Below are positions 1 to 6,977 of a stretch of DNA of 6,977 nt, in pieces. A program made the position numbers and the translations under genes. The notes beneath the pieces are model-generated. The model made no database searches, was not told the origin of the DNA, and saw only the letters and a list, made by a program, of their open reading frames with translations. The stretch is from Bacteroidaceae bacterium (GTDB lineage: Bacteria > Bacteroidota > Bacteroidia > Bacteroidales > Bacteroidaceae): the NCBI GenBank assembly GCA_017466065.1, contig JAFTUV010000045.1:1-6977 (forward strand). The letters are read 5' to 3'. Numbering within the stretch: the first letter of the stretch is position 1; every line of letters begins with the position of its first letter.

Positions 1-361
1 CGGGACAGTTGTAAATAACTCCTCCTCCGTGTTTGTACTCCCTCCCGGCTACTGCCGTACTCCTCCTCCGTGAGAGGAGGGGGACCGCTCCGCGGTGGAG
101 GAGTTGCGTTTCTGCTTCACCTTGTCATTTCGACCGCAGGGAGAAATCTCTTGCAACAATGGTTATAGATTTCTCACATACGTTCGAAATGACACAACCC
201 TTTCTTTTGTGCAGACACATCGGTGCCCCTACGTTGCGGGTGCTTTCGCTCCCCTCACCCCTCCGCTTTGTGGCCTTCACTGCGTTTCGGCACTCCTTTG
301 CTTTTGGCAAACGGCGCTACGCTTCCGCGCCGCCCCCTTAAAATCAAGTGGGGCAGTTTAT
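1..361. repeat. Left flanking mosaic of intergenic repeat modules, no gene seen
   Basis: This stretch is built of short modules that recur near the right end of the window. Module 1 is 17-45, identical to 6723-6751. Module 2 is 81-176, matching 6882-6977 with 4 mismatches in 96 and no gap; 110-176 is identical. Module 3 is 204-224, identical to 6666-6686. Module 4 is 272-298, identical to 6779-6805, followed by GCAAACGGCGCT at 307-318 and again at 6830-6841. Module 5 is 333-361, matching 6690-6718 with 3 mismatches. A small hairpin lies at 62-80 (CCTCCTC/GAGGAGG arms, 5-base loop). Open frames here (33-341, 95-514, 223-459) run through the repeats and resemble no protein I know, so I read the region as non-coding. 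That the modules are a dispersed family elsewhere in the genome is inference. Confidence 0.85.
123..194. repeat. Two-tier palindromic (REP-like) repeat, left copy
   Basis: The outer arms TGTCATTTCGA (123-133) and TCGAAATGACA (184-194) are perfectly complementary over 11 bp. The inner arms GAGAAATCT (141-149) and AGATTTCTC (167-175) are perfectly complementary over 9 bp. They are separated by a 7/8-base internal loop and close on a 17-base loop, so the single strand can fold into a long interrupted hairpin. The same sequence begins again at 6924 in the right flank. Repeats with this TCATTTCGACCGCAGGGAG core are, to my recollection, frequent between genes in Bacteroidetes. The biological role is unknown; a RAYT-type transposase-dependent REP element or a transcript-end structure are possibilities. 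No transposase gene is in the window. Confidence 0.8.
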
Positions 362-552
362 GTTTATTTTTTTTCCTTCTGCTCTTTTGCCATTCTCTTG
401 TGCCTACACATTGCGCTGCACACCACCTTTTTAGTGAGCCGAAAAACCTTAAATTTTAATACACAGCTAATTTATTGTGTTAAAATGTTTAGAATTACAG
501 AAAAAAATCTTTAAATTTGTACCGGATAATGTACTAACGTAACTCAATTTAT
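362..552. other. AT-rich leader upstream of nqrA
   Basis: This is an AT-rich stretch between the repeat mosaic and the nqrA start codon. It shows no coding signal, no tRNA-like fold and no riboswitch that I recognise. It holds the putative promoter at 488-519. A weak imperfect inverted repeat (ACACA at 461-465, TGTGT at 476-480) lies just upstream of the promoter. It could be an operator, but five-base arms in AT-rich DNA are not convincing. Confidence 0.5.
488..519 (+). promoter_or_regulatory. Putative Bacteroidetes-type sigma-ABfr promoter for the nqr operon
   Basis: TAAATTTG at 512-519 fits the Bacteroidetes -7 consensus TAnnTTTG exactly. TTTAG at 488-492, a one-base deviation from the -33 TTTG element, lies 20 bases upstream, which is the usual spacing. 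Transcription would begin around 525, giving a leader of roughly 25-30 bases before the nqrA ATG at 553. There is no comparable match directly before the other five genes, which fits a single operon promoter. The consensus is established for Bacteroides; its use here is inferred from sequence alone. Confidence 0.55.
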
Positions 553-1902
553 ATGCACAGAGTCGTAAAAATTACTAAGGGATTGGATATCAATCTAAAA
601 GGAGCTCCTGTTGCCGAGTATGTATCGGTAGCCGAAGCAAAGCAGTATGCTTTGATGCCTGCCGACTTTACCCGCGTAACTCCCAAAGTGGTAGTAAAGC
701 CCGAGGATAAAGTAAAAGCCGGCGAGCCCCTCTTTATTGACAAGAATTGTCCCGAATTGCAATTCGTTTCGCCCGTGAGCGGAACAGTTGTAGCGGTTAA
801 CCGCGGAGAAAGAAGACGCGTATTAAGCGTAGTAGTAGAGTCAGACGGTAAGTTTGAGTCAGTGGAGTACAAGGCAAAAGATGTACTTTCTCTCTCATCG
901 GAGGAAGTAAAAGCCGACCTTGCAAAGGCCGGTCTCTTCGCCTTTATGCGCCAAAGACCCTACGATGTTATCGCCACTCCCAGTGATTCACCCCGAGCCA
1001 TTTTCGTGTCGGCATTCGACTCAAAGCCCCTCGCAGTGGACTTTGAAGTAGCCCTGAAAGGAAATGAGGACGATTTCCAGACAGGTCTCGACGCCCTCTC
1101 TCGCATAGCACCCGTATATCTGGGCGTGAGCGCAAGCCAGAAGGCAGCCGCATTGAGCGTGGCAAAGAATGTCACCACCACCGTGTTCAAGGGTCCTCAC
1201 CCCGCAGGCAATGTAGGCGTGCAGATTAACCACGTAGCCCCCATCAACAAAGGCGAGATTGTGTGGACCATCGGAGCCGAAGAAGTAATCTTCATCGGTC
1301 GCTTCTTCAACAAAGGCAAAATCGATTTCACCCGCACCATCGCCGTAGCAGGCAGCGAGGTAACAAACCCCGCATACAGTAAGGTGGTTCTTGGCGCACA
1401 GATAAGCACCCTTATCGCCGGCCGCACAAAGAACGAAAATCCCCTTCGCATAATCGACGGCAACGTGCTCACCGGCAAGAAAACCACAGCCGACAGCTTC
1501 CTTGGAGCCTTCTCCACCGAAGTAACCATCATCCCCGAGATAATGGGCGGCGACGAAATGTTCGGTTGGATAGCCCCCCGTTTCTCTATGTTCAGCACCA
1601 GCCGCAGCTATTTCAGCTGGCTTATGCCCAAGCGTGCCTACACCATCGATGCCCGCATCAAAGGTGGCGAACGCCATATGATTATGTCCAACGAGTACAA
1701 CAAAGTGTTCCCTATGGATATCTACCCCGAGTACCTCATCAAAGCCATCATCACCGGTAACATCGACAAGATGGAAGAGCTCGGAATCTACGAGGTAGCA
1801 CCCGAAGACTTCGCCTTGTGCGAGTTCGTCGATTCATCGAAACTCGAACTGCAACGCATCGTGCGCGAAGGCCTCGACAAGCTCCGTGCCGAAATGTGTT
1901 AA
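553..1902 (+). CDS. nqrA: Na+-translocating NADH:quinone oxidoreductase subunit A (NqrA)
   Basis: NqrA is the large peripheral cytoplasmic subunit of Na+-NQR, which docks on NqrB and contributes to the quinone-reaction region. The 449-residue protein is close to the roughly 446 residues of Vibrio NqrA. Visible marks: the N-terminal KITKGLDINLKG (6-17), typical of the family; a barrel-sandwich (biotinyl/lipoyl-like) region around 43-97 with PEDKVKAGEPLF and SPVSGTV; the strongly conserved block GPHPAGNVGVQINHVAPI (214-231) followed by VWTIGAEEV; and the C-terminal block ERHMIMSNEYNKVFPMDIYP (373-392) ahead of EDFALCEF. It lacks the ferredoxin-type CxxCxxC motifs of the related RnfC, which supports Nqr over Rnf. 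ATG 553 is chosen because the family N-terminus starts directly after it. It has no Shine-Dalgarno sequence, only A/T-rich bases. It is the first gene of the operon, 59 bases before nqrB. Confidence 0.97.
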   Translation: MHRVVKITKGLDINLKGAPVAEYVSVAEAKQYALMPADFTRVTPKVVVKPEDKVKAGEPLFIDKNCPELQFVSPVSGTVVAVNRGERRRVLSVVVESDGKFESVEYKAKDVLSLSSEEVKADLAKAGLFAFMRQRPYDVIATPSDSPRAIFVSAFDSKPLAVDFEVALKGNEDDFQTGLDALSRIAPVYLGVSASQKAAALSVAKNVTTTVFKGPHPAGNVGVQINHVAPINKGEIVWTIGAEEVIFIGRFFNKGKIDFTRTIAVAGSEVTNPAYSKVVLGAQISTLIAGRTKNENPLRIIDGNVLTGKKTTADSFLGAFSTEVTIIPEIMGGDEMFGWIAPRFSMFSTSRSYFSWLMPKRAYTIDARIKGGERHMIMSNEYNKVFPMDIYPEYLIKAIITGNIDKMEELGIYEVAPEDFALCEFVDSSKLELQRIVREGLDKLRAEMC

Positions 1903-1961
1903 TAATCGACAAGCACAATAAGTGATTGCTAACCAGAACAGCAAAATAAAAAATACATCGT

Positions 1962-3155
1962 ATGAAATTTTTGAGAAATTATCTTGATAAAATTAAACCC
2001 AACTTCGAAGAGGGCGGCAAATTGCACGCACTCCGCTCGGTGTTCGACGGAATGGAGACATTCCTGTTCGTTCCCAACGACACCTCGAAGAGTGGTGTTA
2101 ACATTCACGATGCGATAGACAGCAAACGCATAATGTCGCTTGTGGTTATCGCACTAGTTCCGGCCCTACTGTTCGGAATGTACAACCTCGGTTATCAGAA
2201 CGCTCTTGCAGCCGGAATGCTTGCCGAGACAACCTGCTGGGAGATGCTCCTCTTCGGTCTTATGGTAACCCTGCCCAAAATTGTGGTAACCTACCTTGTA
2301 GGTCTTGGAATAGAGTTCATCGTAGCCCAGTGGAAGAACGAAGAGATACACGAAGGCTTCCTCGTGTCGGGAATCCTCATTCCTATGATTGTTCCCGCCG
2401 GCTGTCCCCTGTGGGTACTCGCCGTGGCAACAGCCTTCTCGGTAATCTTCGCCAAGGAAGTATTCGGCGGCACAGGAATGAACATCGTGAACGTAGCCCT
2501 CATAGCCCGCGCGTTCATCTTCTTCGCCTATCCCACAGTAATCTCCGGTGAGTCGGTGTGGGTAGCCACAAACTCCATCCTCGGAATAGGTTACGACCTG
2601 CCCGACGGCTACACCTGCGCCACCGCATTGCAGTTCGTTAAAGAAGGCGGTGCCATCATCGGAGCCACAGGTGCCAATCTTAGCGTCTGCGATATGATAT
2701 GCGGCCTTATGCCCGGCTCCATCGGCGAAACAAGCGTAATCGCCATCGCTCTTGGTGCAGCCCTCCTCTTGTGGACAGGCGTTGCAAGCTGGAAGGTAAT
2801 GGTAAGCGTCTTTGTAGGCGGCATAGCAATGCTTTTCCTCTTCACCGGCCTTATGCCCGAGAATCCCGCATTGCAGCAACCCATCTACACCCACCTGTTG
2901 CTCGGCGGTTTCTGCTTCGGAGCCGTGTTTATGGCAACCGACCCTGTTACAGCAGCCCGCACCGAAACAGGCAAGTTCATCTACGGCTTCGGCATTGGCG
3001 CAATGGCAATCCTCATCCGCGTGTTCAACCCCGGTTATCCCGAAGGTATGATGCTTGCCATCCTGCTTATGAACGTAACAGCCCCCTTCATCGATTACTG
3101 CGTGGTACAGTCCAACATCACTGCTCGCGCTAAACGTCTAACCAAAAAGAACTAA
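1962..3155 (+). CDS. nqrB: Na+-translocating NADH:quinone oxidoreductase subunit B (NqrB)
   Basis: NqrB is the central integral membrane subunit of the NqrB/RnfD family. It carries a covalent FMN, binds riboflavin, takes part in quinone reduction and is thought to form the Na+ path. The protein has 397 residues (Vibrio about 415). After a soluble N-terminus it has about ten hydrophobic segments, roughly 57-75, 95-120, 132-165, 174-192, 255-297, 310-325, 337-353 and 363-380. Family blocks include EIHEGFLVSGILIPMIVPAG (128-147), FAKEVFGGTGMN (163-174), FMATDPVTAA (323-332) and NPGYPEGMMLAILLMN (356-371). The flavin-attachment motif reads D215-G-Y-T-C-A-T221, so T221 is the expected FMN-bearing residue, matching Thr236 of Vibrio. 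The usual Gly before Ala-Thr is Cys219 (TGC at 2616-2618). Flavinylation would need an ApbE transferase encoded elsewhere. Stop is 6 bases before nqrC. Confidence 0.97.
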   Translation: MKFLRNYLDKIKPNFEEGGKLHALRSVFDGMETFLFVPNDTSKSGVNIHDAIDSKRIMSLVVIALVPALLFGMYNLGYQNALAAGMLAETTCWEMLLFGLMVTLPKIVVTYLVGLGIEFIVAQWKNEEIHEGFLVSGILIPMIVPAGCPLWVLAVATAFSVIFAKEVFGGTGMNIVNVALIARAFIFFAYPTVISGESVWVATNSILGIGYDLPDGYTCATALQFVKEGGAIIGATGANLSVCDMICGLMPGSIGETSVIAIALGAALLLWTGVASWKVMVSVFVGGIAMLFLFTGLMPENPALQQPIYTHLLLGGFCFGAVFMATDPVTAARTETGKFIYGFGIGAMAILIRVFNPGYPEGMMLAILLMNVTAPFIDYCVVQSNITARAKRLTKKN

Positions 3156-3161
3156 AAGATT

Positions 3162-3269
3162 ATGGCTAAATATGTATGTAAAGTGTGTGGATATACACAC
3201 GAAGGAACAGAGGCTCCCGCAGTGTGCCCTCTCTGCAAAGCCCCGGCATCAGAGTTCGAGCTGGTAGGC
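3162..3269 (+). other. Rubredoxin/rubrerythrin-type metal-binding domain within nqrC
   Basis: This encodes residues 1-36 of the NqrC fusion. Two CxxC knuckles are separated by 12 residues (C9 to C22), with the features KYVCKVCGYTHEG and EAPAVCPLCKAP. This spacing and the Tyr and Gly after the first knuckle match the short rubredoxin domain of rubrerythrins, which binds one Fe(SCys)4 centre. A zinc ribbon is the main alternative and cannot be excluded by sequence. Codon use and base composition look like the rest of the operon, with no sign of a recent insertion. In most NqrC proteins I know, the chain begins only shortly before the membrane helix. Confidence 0.85.
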
Positions 3270-4040
3270 GGCGAGAGTAATAGCGAGAAACCCGCGAAGA
3301 AAGGGTTTAACACAGCCAGCGACTCCTACGCCATCATCTACGCATCCATCGTAGTGGTGATAGTAGCCTTCCTTTTGGCCGGCGTGTCGTCGCTCCTTCG
3401 CCCCTTGCAGGATGATAACATCCGCCTCGACAAGAAGAAGCAGATACTCTCTTCGCTTAACCTTAAAAACCTCCCCGACGCAGCAGCCACATATTCCGAG
3501 GTTGTTAAGCAAGAAATGATAATCGACGCACAGGGTAACACCGTAGCTGCCGAAGGCGGTTTTGATGTTAAGAACGACGCTGTGAACGACAATAACCTCC
3601 CCCTCTACATCTGCGAGGTAGACGGCGAGACAAAATATGTAATACCTATGACCGGTAACGGTCTTTGGGGCGGAATCTGGGGCTATCTTGCCGTGAACAA
3701 CGACGGTAACACCATCTACGGTGTATACTTCTCTCACGCAAGCGAAACTCCCGGCCTTGGAGCCGAGATTGCAAGCGACAAATTCCAGAGTCGTTTCCCC
3801 GGTAAGAACATAATAAAAGATGGTGCGGTAGGCCTTGCCGTAACAAAGAAAGTTGCCGACGAGGCTTGCGAGGTTAACGCAATCTCGGGTGCCACCATCA
3901 CCTGTAACGGTGTTAACGGAATGCTCGCAAAGACAATGGAGAGCTACAAAGCCTTCCTTTTGGCAGCACAGCCCGCACCGGTAGTTGTTGAACAAGAGCC
4001 TGCTCCCGCCGAGGAGGCACAAGTAACAGAGGAGGAATAA
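3162..4040 (+). CDS. nqrC: NqrC with an N-terminal rubredoxin-like domain (fusion)
   Basis: NqrC carries a covalent FMN that relays electrons between the NqrD/NqrE iron site and NqrB. At 292 residues this protein is longer than Vibrio NqrC (about 257). Residues 1-36 form an added domain with C6-x2-C9 and C22-x2-C25 knuckles (YVCKVCGYTHEG, then VCPLCKAP), like the short rubredoxin domain at the C-terminus of rubrerythrins. A polar linker (about 37-54) leads to one membrane helix (about 57-78), then the FMN-binding domain with GLWGGIWGYLAV (167-178), ETPGLGAEI (195-203) and the attachment site S242-G-A-T245. The helix in NqrC runs from cytoplasm to periplasm, so the cysteine domain should be cytoplasmic and the FMN domain periplasmic. 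The motif position that is usually Asp is Asn239. The C-terminus (269-292) is a Pro/Ala/Glu-rich tail. ATG 3162 lies 6 bases after the nqrB stop, and the next in-frame ATG is far inside, at codon 119, so the fusion is not a start-site error. Confidence 0.95.
   Translation: MAKYVCKVCGYTHEGTEAPAVCPLCKAPASEFELVGGESNSEKPAKKGFNTASDSYAIIYASIVVVIVAFLLAGVSSLLRPLQDDNIRLDKKKQILSSLNLKNLPDAAATYSEVVKQEMIIDAQGNTVAAEGGFDVKNDAVNDNNLPLYICEVDGETKYVIPMTGNGLWGGIWGYLAVNNDGNTIYGVYFSHASETPGLGAEIASDKFQSRFPGKNIIKDGAVGLAVTKKVADEACEVNAISGATITCNGVNGMLAKTMESYKAFLLAAQPAPVVVEQEPAPAEEAQVTEEE
4030..4036 (+). promoter_or_regulatory. Shine-Dalgarno-like AGGAGGA before nqrD
   Basis: AGGAGGA ends 8 bases before the nqrD ATG at 4045, an ideal distance for a ribosome-binding site. 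It is also the end of the nqrC coding sequence, where GAG GAG GAA encodes the Glu tail. Bacteroidetes usually do not depend on such sites, and none of the other five nqr genes has one, so it may be a by-product of the acidic tail. Confidence 0.35.
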
Positions 4041-4044
4041 TACT

Positions 4045-4671
4045 ATGGGACTATTTTCAAAGAAAAATGTTGAGGCACTCCAAACGCCTCTGTTGAAGGA
4101 GAACCCTGTAACCATTCAGGTGCTCGGTATCTGTTCGGCACTTGCCGTTACAAGCAAGCTCGCCCCCGCCATAGTGATGGGCCTTTCGGTAACCATTATT
4201 GTAGCTATGGCCAACGTGATAATTTCACTCATTCGTAACACAATTCCCTTGCGCATCCGCATCATCATCCAGCTGGTGGTGGTTGCCGCGCTTGTGACAC
4301 TCGTGAGCGAGGTGCTCAAAGCCTTTGCCTACGACGTGAGCGTTCAGCTCTCGGTGTACGTGGGACTCATCATCACCAACTGTATCCTTATGGGTCGCTT
4401 GGAGGCCTTTGCAATGCAGAATAAGCCTTGGCCCTCGTTCCTCGACGGTATTGGTAACGGCCTTGGCTATGCAATGATACTTGTTATCGTTGCAATTGTT
4501 CGCGAATTGTTCGGCTCGGGTACTTTGCTCGACTTCCCCGTGATACCCCAATGTGTTTACGATGCGGGATACATTAACAACGGTCTTATGCTTATGGCTC
4601 CTATGGCATTCTTCCTCATTGCCATAATCATCTGGGTGCAGAGAGCAAAAGACAAGAGTTTGCAAGAGTAA
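4045..4671 (+). CDS. nqrD: Na+-translocating NADH:quinone oxidoreductase subunit D (NqrD)
   Basis: NqrD is an integral membrane subunit of the NqrDE/RnfAE family and pairs with NqrE in an inverted-topology core that holds the membrane-embedded iron centre between NqrF and NqrC. The protein has 208 residues and about six hydrophobic segments (roughly 26-46, 47-63, 72-93, 100-120, 137-155, 183-198). The two iron-ligand cysteines are present at C30 (LGICSALAV) and C113 (ITNCILMGRLEAFA), equivalent to Cys29 and Cys112 in Vibrio. Other family marks are KENPVTIQVLGIC (18-30) and FLDGIGNGLGY (132-142). ATG 4045 lies 4 bases after the nqrC stop, so translational coupling is likely. The gene ends in tandem TAA TAA. 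RnfE is the nearest paralogue; the neighbours exclude it. Confidence 0.97.
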   Translation: MGLFSKKNVEALQTPLLKENPVTIQVLGICSALAVTSKLAPAIVMGLSVTIIVAMANVIISLIRNTIPLRIRIIIQLVVVAALVTLVSEVLKAFAYDVSVQLSVYVGLIITNCILMGRLEAFAMQNKPWPSFLDGIGNGLGYAMILVIVAIVRELFGSGTLLDFPVIPQCVYDAGYINNGLMLMAPMAFFLIAIIIWVQRAKDKSLQE

Positions 4672-4695
4672 TAATTTAGATACAGAAGAAAAATT

Positions 4696-5322
4696 ATGGA
4701 ACATTTTATTAGTTTGCTTGTCCGCTCGATATTCGTGGACAATATGGTTTTTGCCTTCTTCTTGGGTATGTGTTCATATTTGGCTGTATCTAAGAGTGTG
4801 AAGACAGCGATAGGTCTTGGATGTGCCGTGGTATTTGTACAGGTTATCACCCTCCCCGTTAACTACCTGTTGCAGACAGCGGTATTGGCCAATGGTGCGA
4901 TAATCGAGGGCGTGGACCTCACATTCCTCGCATTCATCCTCTTCATCGCCGTTATTGCAGGTATTGTGCAGTTGGTGGAAATGATTGTAGAGCGTTTTGC
5001 TCCCGCATTGTACAGCCAGCTTGGTATCTTCCTCCCTCTTATTGCCGTTAACTGCGCCATTATGGGTGGCTCGCTCTTTATGCAGCAACGCATAGGCTTG
5101 GAGGCAACAAACTCACAGGCAATCCTCAACTTCTGGGATGCTGTGGCCTTTGCATTAGGTTCGGGTTTCGGTTGGATGGTAGCCATTGTGCTGTTTGCCG
5201 CTGTTCGTGAGAAAATGGAGTACTGCAATGTTCCCAAGCCCCTCCGCGGCCTTGGAATAGCCTTCATCACCGTAGGTCTTATGGCTATGGCATTTATGTG
5301 CTTCTCTGGTATTAAAATGTAA
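4696..5322 (+). CDS. nqrE: Na+-translocating NADH:quinone oxidoreductase subunit E (NqrE)
   Basis: NqrE is the second membrane subunit of the NqrDE/RnfAE family; it forms the NqrD-NqrE iron site with its cysteines and helps close the electron route across the membrane. The 208-residue sequence follows Vibrio NqrE closely from its first residues ([17 protein letters not shown]). The iron ligands are C26 ([13 protein letters not shown]) and C120 ([13 protein letters not shown]), at the same numbers as in Vibrio. Further conserved blocks are [10 protein letters not shown] (71-80), [19 protein letters not shown] (158-176) and [18 protein letters not shown] (183-200). About six hydrophobic segments are visible. 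It starts 24 bases after nqrD in an A/T-rich gap without a Shine-Dalgarno sequence and ends in TAA TAA, 12 bases before nqrF. Confidence 0.97.
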
Positions 5323-5334
5323 TAAATAAAAGCT

Positions 5335-6603
5335 ATGGATATACAATTAGTATTAGCAAGTATAGCAGTCTTCCTTGTAATCATCCTCCTGTTGGTGATT
5401 ATCCTGTTGGTAGCGAAGAAATATCTCCTTCCTTCGGGCAATGTAAAGGTTAAGATAAACGGCGAGAGCGAGGTTGAAGTAGCTGCCGGCGGCACCCTTC
5501 TGGGTACAATGGCCGAAAATGGAATATTCCTCCCCTCGGCTTGCGGTGGTAAAGGCTCTTGCGGCCAATGTAAAGTACAGGTTCTTGAAGGCGGTGGCGA
5601 AATTCTTCCCTCCGAGACAGGACACTTCTCGCGCAAGGAGCAGCAGGCTCATTGGCGTTTGGGCTGTCAGGTTAAGGTTAAGAACGACCTCTCGCTCAAA
5701 GTGCCCGAGTCGGTTATGGGCGTAAAAGAGTGGGAGTGCGAGGTAATCTCCAACAAGAACGTTGCAACCTTCATCAAAGAGTTCATCGTGGCACTGCCTC
5801 CCGGCGAGCACATGGACTTTGTCCCCGGTTCTTATGCACAGATTAAAATTCCTGCATACGATATGACATACGACAAGGATATCGACAAGAGCCTCATTGG
5901 CGACGAGTATCTGCCCGCGTGGGAGAAATTCGGCCTTCTCGGCTTGAAGTGCAAGAACACCGAAGAGACCATCCGCGCCTACTCTATGGCCAACTATCCT
6001 GCCGAGGGCGACCGCATTATGCTCACCGTGCGCATTGCGACACCTCCCTTCAAGGCCGACCGCTCGGGCTTTATGGATGTTCCCTGCGGTATTGCATCGT
6101 CCTATATTTTCACCCTTAAACCCGGTGACAAGGTAATAATGAGTGGTCCTTACGGAGACTTCCACCCCATTTTCGACTCAAAGAAGGAGATGATGTGGGT
6201 AGGTGGTGGTGCCGGAATGGCCCCCTTGCGTGCACAGATTATGCATATGACAAAGACCTTGAAGACCACCGACCGCACAATGACCTACTTCTACGGTGCC
6301 CGTGCGCTCAACGAAGTATTCTACCTCGAAGACTTCTTGCAGCTGGAAAAAGAGTTCCCCAACTTCACCTTCCACCTTGCACTCGACCGTCCCGACCCCG
6401 CTGCCGATGCAGCCGGCGTGAAGTACACCCCGGGCTTCGTTCATCAGGTAATCTACGAGACCTACCTCAAAGACCACGAGGCCCCCGAGGATATAGAGTA
6501 CTATATGTGTGGTCCCGGCCCTATGTCAAAGGCAGTTGTAAATATGCTTGTCGACTTGGGTGTAGAGGAGAAATCCATTATGTACGACAACTTCGGAGCA
6601 TAA
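5335..6603 (+). CDS. nqrF: Na+-translocating NADH:quinone oxidoreductase subunit F (NqrF), NADH dehydrogenase subunit
   Basis: NqrF is the NADH-oxidising entry subunit: hydride passes from NADH to FAD and electrons then pass to a 2Fe-2S cluster and on to the NqrD/NqrE iron site. The protein has 422 residues (Vibrio about 408). An N-terminal membrane helix (about 5-27) anchors it. A plant-type ferredoxin domain (about 36-125) holds cluster ligands C70, C76, C79 and C111 (SACGGKGSCGQCK, RLGCQ). The ferredoxin-NADP+ reductase-like part has the FAD motif R214-AYSMAN, ATPP (235-238) and SSYIF (255-259), then the NADH-binding G290-GGAGMAPLR, YGAR (320-323) and C392 in MCGPGPM. The C-terminus is DNFGA with the aromatic residue near the flavin. 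Relative to Vibrio there is a modest length increase, which I place between 172 and 212. It is the last gene of the operon and is followed after 22 bases by the terminator. Confidence 0.97.
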   Translation: MDIQLVLASIAVFLVIILLLVIILLVAKKYLLPSGNVKVKINGESEVEVAAGGTLLGTMAENGIFLPSACGGKGSCGQCKVQVLEGGGEILPSETGHFSRKEQQAHWRLGCQVKVKNDLSLKVPESVMGVKEWECEVISNKNVATFIKEFIVALPPGEHMDFVPGSYAQIKIPAYDMTYDKDIDKSLIGDEYLPAWEKFGLLGLKCKNTEETIRAYSMANYPAEGDRIMLTVRIATPPFKADRSGFMDVPCGIASSYIFTLKPGDKVIMSGPYGDFHPIFDSKKEMMWVGGGAGMAPLRAQIMHMTKTLKTTDRTMTYFYGARALNEVFYLEDFLQLEKEFPNFTFHLALDRPDPAADAAGVKYTPGFVHQVIYETYLKDHEAPEDIEYYMCGPGPMSKAVVNMLVDLGVEEKSIMYDNFGA

Positions 6604-6670: not shown

Positions 6671-6807
6671 GTGCAGACACATCGGTCTGCCCCCTTAACA
6701 TTAAGTGGGACAGTTTATAATTAACTCCTCCTCCGTGTTTGTACTCCCTCCGCGCTTCGTTTCTCTCGCGGCTACCGCGGCCTTCACTGCGTTTCGGCAC
6801 TCCTTCG

Positions 6808-6823
6808 TGGTGTTAAAACACCA
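6808..6823. repeat. Short hairpin inside right-flank module 4
   Basis: TGGTGTT (6808-6814) and AACACCA (6817-6823) form a perfect 7-bp stem around AA. At the matching place in the left copy (299-306) there is only a short unrelated stretch, so the hairpin marks a small insertion or replacement between otherwise matching segments. Confidence 0.6.
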
Positions 6824-6854
6824 GTCGTCGCAAACGGCGCTGTGGTTCCGCGCC

Positions 6855-6876
6855 GTCCCTCTTTAAAAAGAGGGAC
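6855..6876. repeat. Perfect 10-bp inverted repeat
   Basis: GTCCCTCTTT (6855-6864) and AAAGAGGGAC (6867-6876) are exact complements separated by AA. It lies where the left flank has the looser palindrome of module 5 (CCCCCTT at 333-339 with AAGTGGGG at 346-353), so it looks like a diverged but fully symmetric member of the same class. In both cases it is followed by the CAGTT sequence. Confidence 0.7.
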
Positions 6877-6923
6877 AGTTCGGGACCGCTTTGCGGTGGA
6901 GGAGTCGCGCTTCTGCTTCACCT

Positions 6924-6977
6924 TGTCATTTCGACCGCAGGGAGAAATCTCTTGCAACAATGGTTATAGATTTCTCA
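6924..6977. repeat. Two-tier palindromic (REP-like) repeat, right copy, cut by window end
   Basis: It is identical to 123-176: outer left arm TGTCATTTCGA at 6924-6934 and inner arms GAGAAATCT (6942-6950) and AGATTTCTC (6968-6976). The outer right arm would fall beyond the last base of the window, so the copy is incomplete only because the window stops. Confidence 0.8.

Follow-up and report, generated by a model that had tools for sequence, protein, structure and literature searches.

The NqrC protein encoded in the 6,977-nucleotide stretch of DNA analyzed here (the window) begins, with near certainty, with a genuine rubrerythrin-type rubredoxin domain, the short-spaced form, fused ahead of the ordinary NqrC sequence. 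The fused protein apparently represents a real, conserved variant of Na+-NQR that has gone undescribed. Below we set out the evidence for the fusion, its distribution among Bacteroidales and the roles that the additional domain might play.

Architecture of the fused NqrC

The window carries a complete nqrABCDEF operon in intact gene order on the plus strand (553-6603), as judged from the open reading frames and NCBIfam models. Each of the six Nqr proteins passes the NCBIfam equivalog cut-off of at least one model (Table 1), with NqrC scoring 201.5 bits against TIGR01938 (cut-off 144). A dispersed repeat surrounds the operon. The same intergenic block lies on both sides (window positions 1-366 and 6689-6977), with 96-nt copies at 81-176 and 6882-6977 that are 96% identical, and three shorter repeat families are also present.

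Table 1. Genes of the nqr operon in the window and parts of the fused NqrC protein
Feature	Position	Strand	Evidence
nqrA	553..1902	+	NF003761 640.9 bits (cut-off 450), TIGR01936
nqrB	1962..3155	+	TIGR01937 450.5 bits (cut-off 349.9)
nqrC, N-terminal rubredoxin-like fusion, 292 aa	3162..4040	+	PF21349 and PF04205; TIGR01938 above cut-off
RUBY_RBDX domain of NqrC, residues 4-33, C6/C9/C22/C25	3171..3260	+	Pfam E 1.7e-14; PDB rubrerythrin E 7e-9; AlphaFold2 (AF2)
Polar low-confidence linker of NqrC, residues 36-52	3267..3317	+	pLDDT <50 at 38-48
Long helix of NqrC with membrane anchor, residues 54-98	3321..3455	+	AF2 helix H54-98; model matches Vibrio NqrC
FMN_bind domain of NqrC, residues 167-258	3660..3935	+	PF04205 E 2.6e-17
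nqrD	4045..4671	+	TIGR01939 303.1 bits
nqrE	4696..5322	+	TIGR01940 280.2 bits
nqrF (2Fe-2S and FAD/NADH)	5335..6603	+	TIGR01941 570.6 bits; Fer2, FAD_binding_6, NAD_binding_1

The N-terminus of NqrC (MAKYVCKVCGYTHEGTEAPAVCPLCKAPASEFELV) contains two CxxC pairs, with 12 residues between C9 and C22. A preliminary description of this DNA had recognized rubrerythrin-type rubredoxin spacing at C6, C9, C22 and C25. This reading is confirmed by the Pfam family RUBY_RBDX (PF21349), which matches residues 4-33 with a score of 53.4 bits (gathering cut-off 26.5; E 1.7e-14), and the domain search proposed in that description as a check found RUBY_RBDX and FMN_bind in one protein. Residues 1-47 alone match rubrerythrin in the PDB (1ryt/1b71) at E 7e-9. 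When the rubredoxin domain was modelled alone with AF2, rubrerythrins and rubredoxins were the top Foldseek PDB matches (probability 1.00), and a Zn-substituted rubredoxin was among the matches; with a best E of 2.4e-3, the fold match by itself is suggestive and becomes firm in combination with the sequence evidence. Fusion of a canonical rubredoxin gene (PF00301) is ruled out by spacing and family search, as window NqrC has no PF00301 match at E 0.1 and its cysteine pairs are 12 residues apart rather than about 30 or more. The ferritin-like diiron four-helix domain that serves as the criterion for a rubrerythrin was absent from NqrC in the Pfam search.

In an AF2 model of NqrC built from 49 sequences, confidence is high over the domain (block means 87-92 at residues 1-30) and falls under 50 at residues 38-48 of the linker, which terminates at about the point where ordinary NqrC starts. 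The interval 3162-3323 that the preliminary description assigned to the domain spans domain plus linker. Among 57 fused proteins, 14-28 residues (median 20) separate the conserved Phe of the domain from the Tyr at the helix start; with a linker of this length, the rubredoxin domain has to remain near the membrane. In the FMN portion, T245 of the SGAT motif is presumably the flavinylation site, and G243 and T245 are invariant in 22 alignment rows, the covalent FMN bond itself being an expectation.

Several features support the annotated start of nqrC. Its ATG lies six bases past the nqrB stop, no alternative in-frame ATG occurs before the membrane helix, and fused proteins have linker in place of the initiator Met of ordinary NqrC; the start is therefore sound. 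Plain NqrC proteins begin MNTNSN... or MNRDSN..., and fused proteins read ...KKG-x-NTNSN or ...LDRDSN at the same point. This match between plain and fused sequence at the join indicates that the domain was inserted exactly at the former NqrC start codon. A chance match or wrong start codon is ruled out by the Pfam score, best relatives, start context and join alignment, and an assembly artefact by the presence of the fusion across many separate assemblies.

The Vibrio-type Na+-NQR (V. cholerae, PDB 7xk3 and 8a1t) is alike in having six subunits and an NqrC composed of helix and FMN domain. However, the 257-residue Vibrio NqrC chain lacks the rubredoxin domain, its alignment with a fused NqrC beginning near residue 46 of the latter. 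The top fold match of the window NqrC model is Parabacteroides distasonis NqrC (3lwx), a construct comprising the FMN domain only and treated as a flavin-binding domain in the available portion of one report (PMC4348036). Over 193 residues, 3lwx aligns near-identically to positions 73-265 of P0125, a database protein that starts with a rubredoxin domain. Based on this alignment, the parent protein of 3lwx is almost certainly a fused NqrC. Two composite architectures were also encountered. P0125 and P0127, from Parabacteroides-like contigs, have NqrC and NqrD in one reading frame of 464-468 aa with the rubredoxin domain retained. P0184, a 442-aa protein found on a single contig that may be a chimera, has a 4Fe-4S ferredoxin-like stretch ahead of rubredoxin-NqrC.

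Conservation, distribution and origin of the fusion

The four Cys together with G10, Y11, G15, P19, P23 and F32 are invariant in 59/59 domain copies from 57 proteins, an invariance that is partly circular for Cys, the G/A position, the aromatic residue and P23, because the selecting pattern demanded these residues (the Pro being that of C-P), but not for G15, P19 and F32, which the pattern left free. H13 varies in one of the 59 copies only, and three variants outside the selecting pattern have an altered Y11 and retain all four Cys. Among 22 related genes of the window clade, the dN/dS of the domain (0.095) is comparable to that of the FMN domain (0.113), the helix region lying lower at 0.065 and the C-terminal tail higher at 0.486; synonymous sites of the linker were saturated. 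The low ratio indicates that the rubredoxin domain is maintained by selection. An uncultured Phocaeicola (locus L037:7989-9134) encodes a 382-aa NqrC carrying three rubredoxin domains in tandem, in which copies 1 and 2 differ at 8/102 bases and 1/34 residues. In a database cluster of 55 sequences the protein is likewise 382 aa long and 98% identical from end to end, which makes a single-assembly error unlikely. The triple-domain protein fits an electron-carrier role.

Of 4503 relatives of window NqrC, the best 120 contain both PF21349 and FMN_bind. Fused NqrC was encoded at 56/80 loci from named genomes (one fragment, locus L025, being scored as not fused), a proportion biased by the choice of loci for similarity to fused proteins. 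The fusion occurs in Paraprevotella, Segatella paludivivens, Phocaeicola coprophilus and Paludibacteraceae, and ordinary NqrC in Bacteroides fragilis and Phocaeicola faecicola. In what we term the Parabacteroides-type family (the family of genome G117, placed by named matches), 33/123 genomes are fused and 72 others have an NqrC row that stops short of the domain, these 72 including two fragments and one row (G521) that starts at position 60. At least 90/399 genomes are fused in the B. fragilis family (that of genome G009), and at least 6/393 at the order level among the matches listed. In a phylum sample of 296 genomes, 54 have an NqrC-scale row and none of these extends into the rubredoxin domain. 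Thus, the fusion is widespread yet patchy and is the minority state in the groups sampled.

The preliminary description knew of no account of the fusion, while allowing that a survey might find it ubiquitous and already on record. The architecture is a minority one, and no published description of a rubredoxin-NqrC fusion was found in searches of the open full-text literature, where a paper that names both NqrC and rubredoxin deals with each apart from the other. In the portions available of papers on the Prevotella bryantii NQR, the word rubredoxin is absent, and two of these papers put NqrC at 210 aa or 23.2 kDa. The available text of a paper on NQR evolution (PMC4014512) likewise contains no mention of rubredoxin and sets fused or chimeric sequences aside.

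A tree of 98 operons was built from NqrA, NqrB, NqrD, NqrE and NqrF with NqrC excluded, using a quick and therefore rough LG+G4 analysis. The fusion requires 9 gains or losses on this tree, and a single fused clade, as expected from a single origin, is ruled out (p-AU 1e-5 on the rough tree). In one near-identical operon pair (L162/L171, from fused genome G472 and plain genome G447), NqrABDEF are 98.8% identical. The NqrC cores of this pair share 93.0% identity versus 97.8-99.3% for the four other subunits compared, a drop that fits a swap of the nqrC region by recombination. Mean identity of the 59 NqrC domains is 61% to the N-terminus of reverse rubrerythrin (11 sequences) and 42% to classical rubrerythrin (3 sequences), which suggests the N-terminal domain of reverse rubrerythrin as the source of the fused domain. 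Reverse rubrerythrin is a soluble protein in which, unlike NqrC, a rubredoxin domain is fused to a ferritin-like diiron domain.

The predicted metal site and candidate partner proteins

From its sequence, the NqrC domain would hold a redox-active Fe-Cys4 centre. According to the available text of PMC6033852, Fe-Cys4 sites of short-spaced rubredoxin domains carry electrons in rubrerythrins, and the short-spaced rubredoxin of the class F flavodiiron protein of C. difficile (FDP_F) is a reducible centre of about -110 mV, adjoining an NADH:rubredoxin reductase domain and a flavodiiron core in an enzyme whose path runs from NADH to oxygen. FDP_F resembles what is proposed for NqrC in placing a short-spaced Fe-Cys4 module in an NADH-driven enzyme, but it is an oxygen reductase rather than an ion pump, and the role of its rubredoxin is left pending a structure in the same text (PMC6033852). 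That text also attributes the potential of rubrerythrin, +185 to +280 mV, to an Asn and a His, both of which FDP_F lacks (PMC6033852).

In PDB rubrerythrin, these two residues align with V8 and A27 of NqrC, and in 59/59 domains position 8 is V/I and position 27 is A/V/S. The Asn and His, which we take to be residues N160 and H179 in the D. vulgaris protein, are retained in three Bacteroidales classical rubrerythrins. The C-terminal rubredoxin of classical rubrerythrin shares fold and spacing with the NqrC domain but carries the residues tied to high potential, whereas most of the 11 Bacteroidales reverse rubrerythrins compared have V and A at these two places, as NqrC does. Because the high-potential Asn and His are replaced in NqrC, a low-potential site, suited to electrons from the NqrF cluster, is predicted.

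The helix of V. cholerae NqrC closely contacts TMH3 of NqrD and TMH1 of NqrF, as reported in the available portion of PMC9325719. Since the NqrC helix packs on an NqrF helix, a cytoplasmic N-terminal domain should adjoin the ferredoxin domain of NqrF. By analogy with Vibrio, we infer that the rubredoxin domain is cytoplasmic and lies beside the NqrF ferredoxin domain, from which electron uptake is plausible. The published structure in this way supports the position near NqrF, on the cytoplasmic face, that the preliminary description had proposed.

Candidate partners were compared in 80 hand-picked genomes, 40 fused and 40 plain, each group consisting of 25 from the B. fragilis family and 15 from the Parabacteroides-type family. 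Reverse rubrerythrin, scored as present at E 1e-60 or better, was found in 39/40 fused versus 26/40 plain genomes. The difference was small in the B. fragilis family (24/25 versus 21/25, p 0.35) and large among the Parabacteroides-type picks (15/15 versus 5/15). Over the whole Parabacteroides-type family, where reverse rubrerythrin is patchy (58/123 genomes at the same threshold), it occurs in 32/33 fused versus 20/72 plain genomes, kinship being included in these counts. Two fused genomes, G566 and G468, lack a match, possibly through missing sequence. Classical rubrerythrin does not discriminate between the groups (40/40 fused, 38/40 plain). In a test of independent pairs, reverse rubrerythrin followed the fusion in 1.5 and opposed it in 0.0 of 5 pairs on average, a test unable to reach significance with so few differing pairs. 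Thus, the fusion is nearly always accompanied by reverse rubrerythrin, the converse is untrue, and kinship accounts for part of an association that rests largely on one family.

Soluble rubredoxin (PF00301) was present in 22/25 fused and 25/25 plain genomes of the B. fragilis family, and in 1/15 fused and 11/15 plain genomes of the Parabacteroides-type family. Replacement of soluble rubredoxin by the fused domain, which these counts might suggest, was not supported, as independent pairs show no association and four plain Parabacteroides-type genomes (G440, G443, G447 and G512) also lack soluble rubredoxin, with flavodiiron and PF21349 proteins retained. All 14 rubredoxin-less fused genomes of that family have a flavodiiron match and exactly three occurrences of PF21349 per genome; in two of them the PF21349 proteins are NqrC, reverse rubrerythrin and classical rubrerythrin. 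PF21349 proteins are fewer in several plain genomes. Flavodiiron matches above cut-off were found in 78/80 genomes, both exceptions being fused. NADH:rubredoxin reductase, sought via PF18267, was found in 0/80 genomes and is therefore uninformative.

Among open reading frames of at least 90 aa, no general neighbour gene beyond nqrA-F was detected, with no cluster occurring at more than 18 of 80 loci. The NqrABDEF alignment columns that differ between fused proteins and plain relatives are scattered variable positions with no coherent docking patch. The preliminary description had envisaged a soluble partner for the domain. Co-occurrence with reverse rubrerythrin, a partner type named there, favours this idea; confounding by kinship and the lack of a general neighbour gene count against it. 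Two other rubredoxin-like proteins were observed near nqr loci or in the genomes compared. In one Paludibacteraceae genome, a stand-alone 38-aa rubredoxin-like open reading frame (L154:1224-1337, minus strand) lies beside a reverse rubrerythrin gene, with fused nqrC about 5 kb away. In a 205-aa protein of genome G529 (L153:268-882, minus strand), a rubredoxin-like CxxC pair domain at the N-terminus precedes hydrophobic stretches.

Roles proposed for the fused domain

A redox role for the fused domain is, on balance, probable. The mechanism that we tentatively favour, and to which we give a little under an even chance, is that a low-potential NqrC rubredoxin passes electrons one at a time from the [2Fe-2S] cluster of NqrF to soluble diiron proteins, reverse rubrerythrin first. 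A short-spaced Fe-Cys4 rubredoxin, tethered by a short linker where the NqrC helix ends on the cytoplasmic side, would accept single electrons from the cluster and would deliver them to soluble diiron proteins that consume oxidants, with flavodiiron protein as a possible further acceptor. Under peroxide or oxygen, NADH electrons could in this way exit the pump on the cytoplasmic side. The broader proposal, that Na+-NQR in many Bacteroidales is a branched pump combining quinone reduction with a membrane-bound NADH:rubredoxin-type reductase that supplies reverse rubrerythrin and possibly flavodiiron protein as well, is possible but more doubtful. It is attractive and testable, and the co-occurrence of reverse rubrerythrin may be the clue to it. 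Weighing against the favoured mechanism are the presence of reverse rubrerythrin in many plain genomes, the lack of the domain in close relatives, the fused state of both genomes that lack flavodiiron protein, and the want of a neighbour gene or docking patch.

Some of the same observations would suit a structural knob, in which a Cys4 domain binding Zn or Fe stabilizes or assembles the cytoplasmic end of NqrC and NqrF with no electron transfer. Rubredoxin folds readily take Zn, as the Zn-substituted match illustrates, close relatives dispense with the domain, and no independent partner signal reaches significance. Such a role appears rather unlikely, however, given that the rubredoxin surroundings of the metal are conserved in addition to the four Cys, that the closest match among the domains compared belongs to reverse rubrerythrin, the protein with which the fusion co-occurs, and that a tandem triplication is hard to square with a local structural plug. 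Electron transfer confined to the complex is also conceivable: the site might drain an electron from NqrF and cut flavin semiquinone and superoxide, or might gate the position of the NqrC helix by its redox state and so tune pumping in oxidizing conditions. The short tether adjoining NqrF and the lack of a general neighbour gene agree with an internal sink or gate, and there are precedents for both in the available portions of two papers, one discussing a hypothesis on complex I cluster N1a for control of ROS in anaerobes (PMC5210497) and the other reporting large movements of NqrF, NqrC, NqrD and NqrE in the Na+-NQR mechanism (PMC10739449). We consider an internal centre unlikely, as a finely placed one is difficult to reconcile with three domains in one lineage and a variable linker length, and the association with reverse rubrerythrin would not be expected from it. 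The domain type common to reverse rubrerythrin N-termini, and the co-occurrence with that protein, could also be explained by a docking module that anchors soluble enzymes, reverse rubrerythrin for example, at the membrane, with redox activity secondary, but docking does not in itself require invariant metal ligands and seems a very improbable explanation.

Passage of electrons from NqrF to soluble diiron proteins, as tentatively favoured here, touches on an existing gap in rubredoxin biology. Rubredoxin of B. thetaiotaomicron draws electrons from NADH:rubredoxin oxidoreductase but not from that enzyme alone, as stated in the available text of PMC5210497, and fused NqrC is a concrete candidate for the missing source. 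Database NqrC proteins named B. thetaiotaomicron (P0298 and P0345) are plain, at 224 aa and lacking PF21349, which limits this candidacy to relatives with the fusion, Parabacteroides among them. Fused and plain species that are close kin form a natural pair for comparison, and a crystal structure already exists for the FMN domain from an almost certainly fused NqrC. Abundant gut anaerobes use Na+-NQR as a respiratory pump, whose electron path is commonly described with a fixed cofactor set. That picture would change with one more conserved redox domain on the NADH entry side, and if the pump is indeed branched, defence against peroxide and oxygen would draw directly on the respiratory pump.
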